From the NCBI GenBank assembly GCA_024400415.1, contig JAKSMS010000016.1:1-40462 (forward strand): a stretch of DNA of 40,462 bases, read 5' to 3'. The stretch is from Bacteroidales bacterium (lineage in GTDB: Bacteria; Bacteroidota; Bacteroidia; Bacteroidales; P3). Within the stretch, counting starts at the first letter, position 1. Each line of letters starts with the position of its first letter. Shown here one piece after another: positions 16,967 to 40,316 of the stretch. The position numbers and the translations under genes were made by a program. The notes beneath the pieces were generated by a model. The model was not told where the DNA came from and searched no databases. It saw nothing but the letters and a program-made list of their open reading frames with translations.

Positions 16967-19900
16967 TTACTTAACCACCATCTTACGCATCACTCGCTTG
17001 CCATCGAAGATGATACCATAGAAGTAGGTACCGCTAGAGAGCTGGTCGGAATTGTAGTGGATGGTGTTGGTGCCCATGCTGTAAGGAGCGGTCTGGCTGT
17101 AAACCATACGGCCCATGAGGTCGAGCACATAGAAGGTGACATCGCCAGGAGCAGGAATCTCGAAGTCGATAGAGGTAGCGTGTGAGTATGGGTTAGGAAC
17201 GTTCTGATGGAGAACAATGCCGTCAGACTCATCAGCGTCTACGATATCTTCGAAATAGTTGAGCACGCGAACAATGGTTGACTCATCATTATCGTGGTCG
17301 ACATCAGAAGCCTGATAGATCTTGCAACGACCTTGATAGTCGCGGGTGGCCACCTTTGGAACAGTACCATTAATAGGCAGATAATAGATATTACCTGGGA
17401 TGAGGGAACGTTCCGAGTCGGTCTTTGCCAGTTCAACGCCATTGATGGTACCCGACAGAGTCTGGGTCTTGGTGAGAACGGCATTACCAATATTCTCTAC
17501 CACAAGACGGACACGGCATTCCTCAGAACGATTCTCTTCAATCTCGATACGGTGGAGCTTGATGTCAACCTGGGGTTCGAGCAAGATGTTGGTTGTATCG
17601 TTGGCTGAATTGTTGTCACCAATCAAGTTCACGAAACCGCATGCGATATCACGAGGCTCGTTACGTCTTGGGAGGAGAGAGTCGAACAAGAAAGTAGTCT
17701 GTGCAAGAGAAGCCAACGGCATCTCAGTATGATAGGTAGTCCTATAAGTGGTAGTAGTATCACCATCAACATAGAAACCAACCTCGAAATCGTTGGCTGA
17801 TCGAGCACCCTGATTTTGAATTACCAAGTAAACACGATCAAGGTTATCTTTATTGGTAACGTCGACAATAACGCCTACTGCGGCAATATCCTTGATAGAA
17901 GTAATACCCTCAAGGGCTCTAGAAACAGTATCGTTGTATGGGTATACATCTCGATCGTAATTGCCATATACCTGAAGCGTCATATAGCCGAGCGATGCTC
18001 TCACACGATGCTTGAAGGTGTAGTTGAAATACTCCATTGATGGCAGACCATCAGGTCCGACATACTGAGTAAAGTCAACCTGCTCGGTAACAGGAGCAGC
18101 GCCATTGAAGACATAGGAAAGCGAGATATTATCCATAGGATCGGTACCGAAGTTACGAATCTTGACGGTGATATCAAGCGAGTCTCCAGCCACTACACGA
18201 GGAGTAGGTGAGATGATCTGCTGAACATTGAGGTCATGGCTCAAAGGAGCGAGGGTGAAGATACGGGTATTGGAGTCGTTATCGTAGTAGATATCGGTAC
18301 CCAAGAATGAGAATGCCGTGATAGCAAAAGTATCAGGGAAGTCAGAGGTGATTACGAATCCACGTTCGAAACGATAGTGAACGGTATCGCCAGGTTCGAG
18401 AGTACCGGTCCAAACGCCAGTCTTCGAGAGGTTGGATCCATGAGGAATATAGCCTACCTCGACGCGGTTACGGGTAGCATAGCCATAGTTCTTGATAACG
18501 ACCTTAGGATAGATAGTCTCACCATAGCGAGGCTCTGTAGGTTCGATGATATCTACTATTCCGACATCCTCGGCACGCTGAGCACGACCGATGCGGATAT
18601 CGTCGATAGCGCAGCCGTCACCATAGCTGGTATTATCATTAGCGCCAGGATTGGTGCAGTAGATAAACCTGAACTGAAGATCCTGTGGGAAGTCGCCAGA
18701 TACGGATCTGAGGCTGAGGATCTGATCAACATAACGTCCGTTAGAGCTACCCGAGAAGCAGCCTTCCTCGTTGTACCAAGTAGTGACGGTATCGATACCG
18801 AAGAGGTCAACCCACTTGTGGACAGGACGGTCAAAGTTGAGGAACTGGAGCACAAGCTTAGAGCCAGCAGGCATTGCTCTGTTGAGGTACATAGCCAGGG
18901 TGTCAGCACGAACTGAGGAGATATCGATGATTGGGGAATAGAGGATGGAATAGTTACCATACTTGCCAGTCACGATAGTGTGATCGAGATCGGTGCACCA
19001 AGCATTATCGCCAGAAGCAGTACCTACGATGGTATTCTTAGCAGGAGTACCCAGCTGCCAAACGTTGCGAGTATACTGAGAGTATCCCTTAGGAGCATAC
19101 CACATGCTGACGCCTTCGAAGTCGTCCTCGTGCTTGAGCACCACAACATGGAAACGATGGAACTCAAAACTGAAGGTATTGTTGGAAGGATCGCGGTCGC
19201 CAGTCTGATCGATGCTGAGCTGCAGTTCGGTAGTGCCCTCGTCGAACGAATAGGTAGGAACAGCCACCATGGTGCTATAGCCTGGCATAAGGTTGCCAGT
19301 CCAATTAATAACGCCGGAGGTGGTATCGTTTGGTCCGTTGAAGGAGTAGTTAATGTCTATGTTGGTAAGTGCAGAAGCACCCTTGTTGGCCACATTGAAG
19401 TAGATAGTCTGCGGACCATCTTCAATACGGTTGCGGAGAATTGGCGAGAATCTAGATATGGTATCAAAGAATCCTTGCTTACCACGAGTGCCGACGATAT
19501 GATTGATAGCAACGTCGTATGCTGGTGGTTCTGGGTCTATATAGAGCATATAGTCATGAACGTCGCCATTATCGATATTGCTGCTTACTGTTGGGGTACC
19601 GCTGACAACATTCACCTTACCACCAGGGTTGATGCTGTTGCAATCATCACCACAAAGGAAGATACGCATACGCATGTGGCCAAACCAAGCATCTTCAGGA
19701 ATAGTTACAGGAATTGCCAGTGGGATGGTATCCTCGGCCATGATGGTGGTAGAGGCGATCCATTCCTCGTTGGTCTCGTCGAGGCTGAAACGTCCATCTC
19801 TGTTGTAGTCGATCCATACACCCAACTTAGCGCTACTGCCACTTCTGCTATCGCTACCTATACGGTTCTCGCACTGAACAAACAGAGTATCGTGAGTGCC

Positions 19901-38418: not shown

Positions 38419-38488
38419 AGACTTCAGTCATCAGTCGTCAGACATCAGACTTCGGACTTCAGACATCAGTCGTCAGTCGCCAGTCATT
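38419..38488. repeat. Degenerate heptamer array G(A/T)C(A/T/G)TC(A/G)
   Basis: About ten 7-bp units stay in register, such as AGACTTC, AGTCATC, AGTCGTC and AGACATC. The unit is related to the GACWTCG array at 15461 but more diverged. It starts next to the stop codon of the broken DUF5675 gene. Confidence 0.8.
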
Positions 38489-38998
38489 CCCTCCCTATTT
38501 CCAGCAGTACCGATTCGCCATTCTTCAATGCTTCACGAATCATCGTTGTGAGCTTTCGCGAATGTTCTTGCGACTGGCTCAGCATTCCTTTAGCAGTATT
38601 CCTGCCAACGAGGATGCACCGATGGTGCAAGTGTGAGAGCAATCAAGCTCGCTTGTATTGCCGAACCGCAGCCATCGTCATGAGCGAAGCGAATAGCCCA
38701 ATGTGTGAGAGGCATTCACGCCCGCATGGATGAAGATACCCGAAAAGCCTTTCACCTTGGTAAGGTAAGGCACGTTGCAGCGATGCTTAGCCCAATAGGT
38801 GATGCCCACAGAATAGATGCCTGTTGGGATTGCGGTCTGCCCATAGACCTTGCGCTCTCGGATCATGTCCTCAGACATGGAGGCATCCAGACCTCTGTCC
38901 TTGTCCTCGAGAGTGTCGCAGAAATACTGGTCGTTGACCATCATTCTTCCGATAGTGTAGTTTTCTTTGAGTGCATGACGCACGATTTTAATAACCAT
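38484..38998 (-). pseudogene. DUF5675-family gene split by a 77-bp hairpin element
   Basis: The 5' part (from ATG 38998) reads through GIFIHAGVNASHTLG and then meets a stop at 38678, giving only 106 aa. Beyond the inserted element the frame resumes as CILVGRNTAKGMLSQSQEHS and runs on to KNGESVLLEIGRE and TGA at 38484-38486. Joined, the two parts give HTLG-CILVGRNT, which matches the conserved end of DUF5675 proteins and restores a product of about 145 aa. The 77-nt insert (38619-38695) brings a stop and a frameshift. The domain is often found near phage or lysis genes and its function is unknown. The N-terminal piece may still be made, but it would lack the last 40 residues. Confidence 0.75.
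38619..38695 (-). repeat. Hairpin mini-element, copy A (inside DUF5675 gene)
   Basis: On the minus strand it starts TATTCGCTTCGCTCATGACG. It contains the hairpin CAAT(A)CAAGC-GA-GCTTGATTG (38640-38660) and ends in a second palindrome spanning the junction (GCACC-GAT-GGTGC, 38616-38628). Its limits are set by the restored DUF5675 reading frame. GTGTGAGAG occurs at 38631 and 38703. Confidence 0.7.
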
Positions 38999-39011
38999 AA
39001 TTTTTTTGAGT

Positions 39012-39037
39012 TTACAAGTGTACGAGTGTACAAGTGG
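39012..39037. repeat. Octamer array GTGTACAA
   Basis: About three 8-bp units in register (GTTTACAA, GTGTACGA, GTGTACAA) lie just upstream of the broken DUF5675 gene. They are next to a second 8-bp family with TTNAGAAG units at 39054-39098 that runs into mini-element copy B. Confidence 0.65.
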
Positions 39038-39097
39038 GTTGAAGTTATATTTGAGAAGTTAAGAAGATGCTTTTGAGAAGTTAAGGTGTTTAGAAGT

Positions 39098-39167
39098 TAT
39101 TCGCTTCGCTTATGTCGTTTTGCACTACGGCCTCAAAAGCAAGCTTTTGGGCTCTCCGTTTGAAACG
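39098..39167 (+). repeat. Hairpin mini-element, copy B
   Basis: It starts TATTCGCTTCGCTTATGTCG and contains CAAAAGC-AA-GCTTTTG (39134-39149), GCTCTC at 39151-39156 and the terminal palindrome CGTTTGAAACG. Order and spacing match copy A, with a different but paired stem. It is inserted at the end of a TTNAGAAG octamer array. Confidence 0.7.
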
Positions 39168-39402
39168 CCAAGACGATACGTTTTGTTGCTGACGGATTTG
39201 TCAAAATTGTTGTTGCTGAAATGTATTGTCGTCTGCCGCTGGACTCAAAAATCCACTAAACATCATACTGATGATCAAACTAAAATCTTTGTTTCTCGCC
39301 GGAGGCACGCGAGCGCAGCGACCGCGTTTTCGCGCCCTTCGCCCACCTTCAAACAGTGATAGACTTTTATCCTTTAACTCTTCGCGGGAGTTTTAATGTG
39401 CG
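39168..39402. other. Gene-free spacer
   Basis: About 235 bp. A frame of 79 codons (39120-39359) has no recognisable product and starts inside mini-element B. A GC-rich palindromic patch lies around 39308-39340 and a weak AACTC...GAGTT hairpin with a T run near 39377-39394. No gene is supported. Confidence 0.5.
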
Positions 39403-39493
39403 ATTAGCAGTTAGCAATTGGCCATTGGCCGTTAGCAAATGGCAAATAGTAAATATCCAACAGCCAATCGCCAAAAGCCAATCGCCAATCTCC
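39403..39493. repeat. Thirteen-unit heptamer array (GTTAGCA / ATTGGCC / AATCGCC)
   Basis: Ninety-one bases divide without any indel into thirteen 7-bp units: ATTAGCA, GTTAGCA, ATTGGCC, ATTGGCC, GTTAGCA, AATGGCA, AATAGTA, AATATCC, AACAGCC, AATCGCC, AAAAGCC, AATCGCC, AATCTCC. The units drift in sequence while the period is kept. A hairpin CTGCC-GCGT-GGCAG (39493-39506) follows at once. Confidence 0.85.
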
Positions 39494-39602
39494 TGCCGCG
39501 TGGCAGCTGAACCCATCTAGAGGGATTTCTCCGGGGCTTTTTGTCGGAGTTGACCGCCAGATAGGACAGAGAAAGTCCCCAGATAGGATGGAGAAACTAT
39601 AG

Positions 39603-39793
39603 AGTTCAAAGATGGCTCAAGGCTCAAGGTTCAAAGTTCAAGGTTACTCGGCTTCGCCTCATGACGATTTTGCACTCCGGTCTAGAAAACGAGTTTTCTG
39701 ACGCTCTGTTTAGAATCGTTCAAAGTTCAAGGTTCAATGGTTCAAAGCCGCAGGCGGCTGGTTCAAGGATCAAAGTTCAAAGTTCCACCATAC
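39603..39793. repeat. Heptamer array GTTCAAR, interrupted by mini-element C and a GCCGC hairpin
   Basis: Units such as GCTCAAG, GTTCAAA and GTTCAAG run at a 7-bp period from 39603 to 39644 and again from 39719 to 39787. Between them lies mini-element copy C. A palindrome GCCGC-AG-GCGGC (39747-39758) is embedded in the second half. Confidence 0.85.
39645..39718 (+). repeat. Hairpin mini-element, copy C
   Basis: It starts TACTCGGCTTCGCCTCATGA and contains AGAAAAC-GA-GTTTTCT (39684-39699), then GCTCTG, and ends near GAATCG. It shares with copies A and B the start, the CATGACGA or TATGTCG block, a central C-RA-G hairpin and the GCTCT block. It interrupts a GTTCAAR heptamer array. Confidence 0.7.
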
Positions 39794-39808
39794 ACCTTAC
39801 GCCACACA

Positions 39809-39894
39809 CATCAAAACATCAACACATGTGGCGCAGCCACTAACACATCCAACACATAAAACATCAACACATGTGGCATAGCCACTAACACACC
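39809..39894. repeat. Two-copy 45-bp repeat of ACATC octamers with GTGGC hairpins
   Basis: The stretch AAAACATC AACACAT followed by a hairpin GTGGC-NNN-GCCAC and TAACAC occurs twice, 45 bp apart. The hairpins are at 39828-39840 (loop GCA) and 39873-39885 (loop ATA). Stems are identical and loops differ. Confidence 0.8.
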
Positions 39895-39956
39895 ATCCAC
39901 CATTTCTGGTGCAATTTTTGCCATAATTTTGATTAACAGATTGTTGGGTGCAGTTG

Positions 39957-40005
39957 ACGAAAAGTTAACGAAAAAAATAACTAAACTTTTTCGTTAACTT
40001 TTCGT
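39957..40005. repeat. Perfect 19-bp inverted repeat made of four GTTRACGAAAA motifs
   Basis: The arms at 39957-39975 and 39987-40005 are exact reverse complements around an 11-nt loop. The left side holds GTTGACGAAAA (39953) and GTTAACGAAAA (39964) head to tail, and the right side two in reverse. The right arm contains T runs but is not followed by one. It could be a regulator site, a strong RNA hairpin or a recombination site. Confidence 0.8.
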
Positions 40006-40316
40006 TAATGAAGGCTATAATTATACATAAGCACCTATACTTCTGCGACTTAGTATTCCAAAACGCAAAAATAGGTTCAAATAGTTGTCAAAAGGGCGAT
40101 TTAGTATCCCCAACTGTTGAGCGATCCCACAAGTATCTCTTAATTATTGTTAATTTATTTTTTAAAACATTCATGCTCAGTTTTTTTCGGTAAAATAATA
40201 AATGTCTGCGATATCACCCCAAGCACGTCTGATATCTTACGCCAGAAGTCTCAATTATACATATAGCTGTGTATTAAAAAGATACTACTATGCCACAAAA
40301 AAGAATGTAAAAAGAC
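40006..40316. other. Gene-free AT-rich spacer
   Basis: About 310 bp with only short frames, none with recognisable content. I see nothing in it besides A/T tracts (for example 40146-40162) upstream of the promoter that follows. Confidence 0.5.

Follow-up and report, generated by a model that had tools for sequence, protein, structure and literature searches.

ERIC and BOX elements and MITEs are small non-autonomous mobile palindromes, several of them without a known transposase. Among systems that act on hairpins or at short targets, IS608 uses a guide logic in which the hairpin foot pairs with the junction, IS91 targets GTTC, and Helitrons form head-to-tail arrays. Two further groups stand closer to the case described here. 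CGTC-tagged REPs are palindromic repeats that, in the passages of PMC3733652 that deal with them, are said to apparently lack a dedicated transposase, and TnpA-REP subclass 2.6 (RAYT group 5), according to the passages on it in PMC6006769, is found mostly in Bacteroidetes and accompanies weak, atypical structures that lack GT[AG]G and have copies elsewhere in the genome. Here we describe a hairpin element of about 65-80 bp from a Bacteroidales genome, which is probably a non-autonomous, REP-like family of palindromic mobile DNA that is recognised in its folded form and inserted precisely at a short core by a putative trans-acting enzyme.

Three copies of a hairpin element near a contig end

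The window, by which we mean the whole stretch of 40,462 nucleotides analysed (contig JAKSMS010000016.1), belongs to a genome of 1.84 Mb in 79 contigs that is 81% complete (G000, hereafter the own genome); the genomes compared with it include MAGs. The initial annotation had placed three hairpin copies towards the end of the window, and their positions and strands held up. These copies and their flanks are as follows (R2 is the covariance model described below).

38619..38695, minus strand: element copy 1, 77 bp, a singleton subfamily, within a DUF5675 reading frame
39098..39167, plus strand: element copy 2, 70 bp as first drawn, subfamily B (R2 62.5 bits, E=1.9e-19)
39645..39718, plus strand: element copy 3, 74 bp as first drawn, subfamily A (R2 73.3 bits, E=2.5e-23)
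38678..38998, minus strand: 5' part of the DUF5675 gene, running into copy 1 (PF18925, E=2.6e-18, profile positions 2-82 of 114)
38484..38618, minus strand: 3' remainder of the DUF5675 frame (CILVGRNTAKGM...GRE, stop), from the translation of the joined flanks
39041..39097, plus strand: GAAGTTAAG-type short-repeat array left of copy 2 (direct repeat D6)
39613..39644, plus strand: GTTCAAGG-type short-repeat array left of copy 3 (direct repeat D1), junction AAG-GTT-ACTCGG
39719..39785, plus strand: GTTCAAGG-type short-repeat array right of copy 3 (direct repeat D1), junction GAATC-GTT-CAAAG

Copies 2 and 3 both have near-identical relatives on further contigs, as DNA searches showed. Copy 2 has two of these (contigs C59 and C30), and its right end is the least certain, as the similarity among B copies extends beyond 39167. 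Copies of subfamily A sit in GTTCAAGG-type arrays, and besides copy 3 they occur on C3 (three, one with an insert), C34, C32, C55 and C35, where the contig end cuts the copy. The array at 39613..39644 is the likely insertion target of copy 3, whose junctions read G/TTACTCGG...GAATC/GTT and whose flanks, if joined, would read AAGGTTCAAAG.

The surroundings of these copies are themselves repetitive. The blocks at 39500-39615 (CTCCGGGG..GACCGCCAGATAGGA) and 39786-39945 (CACACACATCAAAACATCAACACATGTGGC) around copy 3 recur beside the C3 and C34 copies, and partly on C32 and C35, which makes copy 3 part of a larger repeated intergenic module. One subfamily A copy on C3 (G000:C3:38941-39090; L032 about 1440-1600) carries ~90 extra nt with a hairpin of their own in its 3' internal loop, and near the contig end a 22-nt inverted repeat with an 11-nt spacer, 95% complementary, lies at 39954-40008.

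A family that reaches beyond the genus

Written as a degenerate pattern, the left block has 12 sites in the own genome and 0 for its reversed control. A covariance model (R1) was built from 11 copies, 10 from the own genome and 1 from the genome G003, with the 38619 copy held out. It returned 18 matches in the own genome, ten being the training copies. Of 119 genomes of the genus, 42 had one or more matches at E<=0.1, a threshold at which ~12 would be expected by chance, and 29 reached 1e-3. A second model (R2) was made from 102 R1 matches, with the 38619 copy not among its training rows. Searched against 393 Bacteroidales genomes, R2 had matches at E<=0.01 in 27, of which two belong to the genus; at E<=1e-4 it matched 17 from outside the genus. 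The held-out 38619 copy scores only 10 bits (E=2) with R1, no better than a chance-level match at 18378-18407 of the window; R2 finds it at 38617-38676 with 28.3 bits (E=4.1e-7), some non-standard pairs being marked. As judged by model score, then, all three window copies are confirmed as one family, which is the outcome of the search of this genome and other Bacteroidales that the initial annotation had proposed.

When the species-genome collection was scanned with an exact pattern, 28 stretches matched, nine from Bacteroidales MAGs, some of them titled horse feces or red deer, and 19 from one MAG (G511) titled 'Actinomycetaceae bacterium RGIG7097', from water-buffalo abomasum, whose taxonomy we take from its title alone. 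G511 holds 98 R2 matches at E<=0.1. A pattern search of viral contigs gave 0 matches, and the literature searched, which lay largely outside subscription journals, held no recognisable description of the hairpin element.

Paired changes preserve an interrupted hairpin

Every copy carries one strongly conserved hairpin. The central hairpin first drawn is present, and the true structure is longer than was drawn, consisting of an inner stem of ~10 bp with one bulged T (or A) and a tip of AA or GA, an internal loop in which a mini-helix of 1-3 bp is accompanied by the conserved CGG/CTC, and an outer stem of 5-6 bp (CGATT/AATCG, CGTTT/AAACG and CGATGG/CCATCG in the window copies). In the 38619 copy the bulge lies two pairs closer to the tip. 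Taken singly, the window hairpins are not unusually stable (DNA fold z-scores of -1.20, -1.52 and -0.10), so the structural case rests on comparison.

The initial annotation had tied its reading to further copies whose stems would still pair. That stems vary yet stay paired is true of the three window copies, and it extends to the family. When the 102 matches are aligned by structure, with 84 rows being distinct, 95.3% of cells are paired versus 38-50% in slid controls, 0 of 500 shuffles reach any observed value, and both-sided changes occur in 16 of 16 modelled pairs, figures that come from an alignment fitted to the model, hence biased towards structure, and from cells that count related sequences. 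One further covarying pair, between columns 13 and 117, lies outside the model; 69 of 80 rows have Watson-Crick partners there (CG 39, GC 18, TA 12). Unpaired positions are kept as well. Of 84 rows, 70 have T and 13 have A as the bulge at column 23, and 79-83 retain CG, the unpaired part of CGG, and the CT..C opposite it. By eye, the G511 copies have the same architecture, with the short helix as AC/GT, GC/GC or GT/AC, and in some subfamilies a mismatch replaces the bulge. Covariation alone need not mean selection, because template switching at palindromes can also yield perfect arms; such switching could keep the arms complementary, yet how it would also maintain the bulge and the asymmetric loop is not obvious.

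Some copies have a small additional hairpin next to the main one, which their left end forms with the TGAC foot, for example GTTAGTTGC-TTC-GCAACTGAC. A fixed-window folding test across copies was not significant (p=0.19); support for this hairpin comes from an arm-swap test, in which own arms paired over 3.21 bp vs 2.77 bp with the arms of other copies (p=0.0035), with at least 5 pairs in 14 of 48 against 6 expected. Closed into a circle, copies with this left hairpin would take the shape of a dumbbell whose cut lies within a helix.

A second insert of ~48 bp (ATTCGCTATTATTTAATCTTGATTCAGCGG...CTACGACA) interrupts the inner hairpin of two different copies at an identical position (L130, G000:C46:14150-14255, and L132, G000:C28:78-182), and copies without it are seen at L114/L115 (C2) and L085/L116 (G031, G003). 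This insert is possibly a further very small mobile element with the hairpin as its target.

Precise insertion and an empty site

Deleting 38619-38695 restores the DUF5675 frame, which then reads from NASHTLG directly into CILVGRNTAKGM (ASHTLG-CILVGRN), with no duplication needed. At seven viral loci with a DUF5675 homologue, three homologues are continuous over the insertion point (DTEGCPLLGKN, DSLGCILIGKN and DSLGCLLVNTS), two loci gave a frame that is unrelated, and the last two gave nothing. Taken by itself, the 44-aa remainder of DUF5675 has no Pfam match.

A transposase gene that we call IS5-type from its domains (DDE_Tnp_1, DUF772) is interrupted by a copy in G003 and, through the same insertion, in G101. 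The joined 123-nt G003 flanks match the genome G061 over positions 13-123 at equal length (111 nt) and 93%, in an open 347-aa ORF, and nine weaker matches in the same and other genomes cross the junction at 72-83%. Within G003, the two flanks align over 1-52 and 48-123 and thus overlap in GTTCA, which is present on either side of the insertion. On this alignment, the uninterrupted transposase gene of G061 is the empty site of one insertion, of the kind that the initial annotation had suggested looking for.

Close same-strand copies are found with periods of 62-83 nt in G102 (68), G105 (75), G029, G026, G108, G044 and G261, and in G116 at 91 nt with repeat sequence between them. From the copies, the restored frame, the empty site and the tandem arrangement we take the element to be mobile, and the mobile half of the original alternative, 'non-autonomous mobile element or structured RNA', thus stands. 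An intergenic location cannot be claimed, because 32 of 76 R2 copies in G511 lie inside stop-to-stop frames of at least 100 codons (frames that need not be genes).

An inverted pair of copies in G511 (L287, G511:C104) was considered as a two-ended transposon and rejected; the pair flanks a YggS-type gene. The palindromes around these inverted copies (GGCGATTATTTCCG..CGAAAATAAATCGCC vs GGCGATTGCTTTCG..CGAAAGCAAGTCGCC) also differ by paired changes.

Both junctions share a short core

At the right end, 46 of 84 rows have GTT and 16 more have ATT, GCT or GGT. On the left, 47 of 74 distinct arms have a GTT at a distance of 9-25 nt ahead of the outer stem, compared with its occurrence in 1052 of 5000 random 17-mers. 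The two junctions share 2-5 nt (GTT or GTTCA; by eye TG in G511), within which limits alone the breakpoint can be placed. An IS200/IS605-derived minimal element would insert 3' to a fixed target of 4-5 nt without duplicating it; here the DUF5675 insertion requires no duplication, G003 shares GTTCA, and the conserved core straddles the junction. GTT-containing short repeats are the location of 11 of 80 distinct copies, and of 20 among 5000 windows drawn at random from the same loci; the words that define these repeats were picked after the arrays had been seen. The 654 kb of G511 analysed, in 40 stretches freed of overlaps, contain 37 left junctions of the form CGTC[AG]TTG-TTCG beside 105 intact CGTC[AG]TTGCGAG repeats (CGTCRTTGCGAG), and the reversed control gives 1; the element often appears to have inserted here into what look like CGTC-tagged REPs. 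By eye, the hairpin foot in the copies listed is commonly TGA-C, AGA-C or TCA-C, rather than a GTAG, GT[AG]G or CGTC tag.

In the reading that we favour, the putative enzyme would act in trans and recognise the hairpin as folded DNA. The insertion itself is shown to be precise, and it takes place without long target duplication at the short core common to both junctions (GTT in Bacteroidales, TG in G511).

Candidate enzymes and the Y1 transposase

If the element were of REP type and moved by an HUH Y1 transposase (RAYT or TnpA-REP, with IS200/IS605 logic), several of its features would be accounted for. The hairpin has a bulged T, insertion leaves no long duplication, and the 5' foot TGAC can pair with a GTTA junction as a guide, a complementarity seen in the sequence; moreover, the structures flanking the mainly Bacteroidetes RAYT subclass 2.6, as the subclass is characterised in the relevant passages of PMC6006769, are atypical, lack GT[AG]G and are copied elsewhere in the genome. 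The distribution of Y1 nevertheless makes this explanation unlikely. The initial annotation had pointed to a REP-associated tyrosine transposase in trans, and no Y1 transposase (RAYT/IS200-like) was detected in the own genome (81% complete) or in G511 with its 98 copies. Within the genus, Y1 is present in 73 of 120 genomes, in 23 of the 42 that bear the element and in 15 of the 29 with matches at E<=1e-3, so Y1 is not enriched where the element occurs and we see no association between the two. When the surroundings of the 30 best Y1 loci in the genus were searched, out to at most 1.5 kb on either side, R2 had no match up to E=10, and the single R1 match was at chance level (E=1.5). Any transposon that moved strictly as lagging-strand ssDNA should also show a strand bias, and against this 36 of 76 G511 copies lie on the G-rich strand, with GC skew as the proxy for replication strand on short contigs; the lack of bias weighs against our favoured reading too. 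No gene-orientation bias is seen in G511 either, 45 of 76 copies being on the majority gene strand (p=0.14). These G511 analyses use 76 of 77 matches, the weakest being left out.

The Y1 searches and the Pfam-scanned neighbours together yielded no candidate enzyme. Among 10 proteins beside arrays and single copies, Pfam found no transposase or integrase, one being YebC and four having no match; among eight other neighbours, two have no match, one is a GIY-YIG nuclease-domain protein and the rest have no visible link to mobility. The GIY-YIG protein (PF01541, L163:2254-3057) lies ~220 nt from the second of two G337 copies, possibly by chance.

Likeness to integron cassettes

A tyrosine recombinase, IntI-like or other, could instead exchange the element at G/TT as an attC-like folded strand without an ORF, in which case the head-to-tail copies would be cassette arrays. 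GTT at both junctions, arrays that share one GTT, and an unpaired loop with one extrahelical T on the 5' arm, which recall the UCS and EHB of attC in the passages of PMC2727003 that describe them, are consistent with this. We consider it distinctly unlikely, as the strand facing GTT mostly ends in GAC and not AAC (the R'' and R' boxes of attC being RYYYAAC and GTTRRRY), the spacer without pairing is set deeper by one stem than that of attC, no cassettes with an ORF are seen and G511 uses TG.

The fold is probably that of DNA rather than RNA

A further possibility is a structured non-coding RNA, or a cis-regulatory element such as a hairpin of a terminator, a 3' UTR or a promoter, copied along with the genes around it. 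A strand that acts as RNA should have many G-U pairs, and more of these than of A-C mismatches. In the alignment, G-U occurs in 22 and A-C in 28 of 1275 cells, and among distinct inner stems the counts are 5 vs 7 in Bacteroidales (37 stems) and 2 vs 2 in G511 (22 stems). As a control, ARAGORN marked 50 G-U of 654 pairs in 29 tRNAs from the same loci and no mismatch of any kind, so that zero A-C there may be by construction and the usable comparison is the G-U share, ~8% in the tRNAs vs <2% in the element. With G-U so rare, and no commoner than A-C mismatches, we infer that the functional fold is one of DNA and not of RNA. In Rfam 15 no covariance model matched the element above its gathering score. 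A Termite-leu match below the threshold (27.3 bits, where gathering requires 51) overlaps a single G511 copy in its final 15 nt. Gene contexts in G511 are even (19, 16, 15 and 15 of 65 classifiable), and the clean insertions within genes also speak against an RNA role. The structured-RNA half of the original alternative is thus disfavoured, and we hold such an origin to be highly improbable, even though pairing is kept through stem swaps at the yebC 3' end in 7 genomes and some copies in other genera end in promoter-like TATCTTTG.

At the apparent yebC 3' end the element adjoins the same place in these 7 genomes (L088, L091, L098, L099, L129/L187, L145 and L146), the identity of yebC (PF01709) having been checked in L187 only. 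The copies there differ by stem swaps (CATGGC/GCCATG vs TATGGC/GCCATA), so some copies may be retained for a local role, and in G108 (L146) three matches stand in tandem.

In other Bacteroidales families (L161, L168; also L163 and L167) some copies end in CTATCTTTG or a close form. This ending resembles a Bacteroidetes -7 promoter box.

The last alternative, a non-autonomous rolling-circle element (IS91/Helitron-like) with its end hairpin beside a GTTC target and in head-to-tail arrays, draws on GTTC in the target arrays of the own genome and on the tandem copies, but has very little probability, as other copies are then followed by GTTA, GTTG or GTTT and Y2_Tnp (PF04986) matched 0 of 12 element-rich genomes, a result to be read with the control genomes having been silent too.

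Implications and comparison with known systems

The element adds a family, apparently cross-phylum if the title of G511 is taken for its taxonomy, to the palindromic mobile repeats without a known transposase. Its signatures are sharp (a bulged T, the CGG/CTC loop, avoidance of G-U) and one empty site is documented, so how such repeats move becomes testable: the covariance model lets a gene that tracks copy number be sought, and the element offers a ~75-nt substrate for assays. A more far-reaching view, which we put forward tentatively and with considerable doubt, would see in it a new class of mobile DNA, namely a folded 'cassette' of ~70 nt of DNA that stands alone, is essentially a dumbbell cut at G/TT and has spread over Bacteroidales and an actinobacterial lineage by means of a putative hairpin-recognising recombinase, with repeats (REPs, short GTT arrays) as preferred landing sites.

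Like REPs and BIMEs, the element is a short, multi-copy palindromic DNA with an imperfect stem, scattered genome-wide and in mosaic with other repeats. Unlike REP/BIME repeats with their RAYTs, it has no GTAG tag at its foot and is longer, with the conserved CGG/CTC internal loop, and neither a Y1 in the two copy-rich genomes nor an element around the 30 Y1 loci was detected. It shares its palindromic nature with the CGTC-tagged REPs, as these appear in the passages of PMC3733652 concerned, and in G511 is often found inside CGTCRTTGCGAG repeats; in contrast to a CGTC REP, however, which is here the target, it is a separate insert with a structure of its own. With the structures of subclass 2.6 (group 5), the comparison is one by description, drawn from the passages in PMC6006769, and the element is not associated with Y1 loci in the genus.

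ERIC, BOX and MITEs differ from the element in structure and junctions, and it has no visible IS-type terminal inverted repeats. Integron attC sites (PMC2727003, in the passages on their structure) are similar in being folded DNA hairpins of similar length, with an extrahelical base on one arm, an unpaired spacer and exchange at GTT, whereas the element has GAC for AAC, another order of stems and spacer and no ORF seen. We therefore file it neither under RAYT-driven REPs nor under attC, because the tag and transposase tests and the R'' test failed, and it may yet work in the manner of one of the two.
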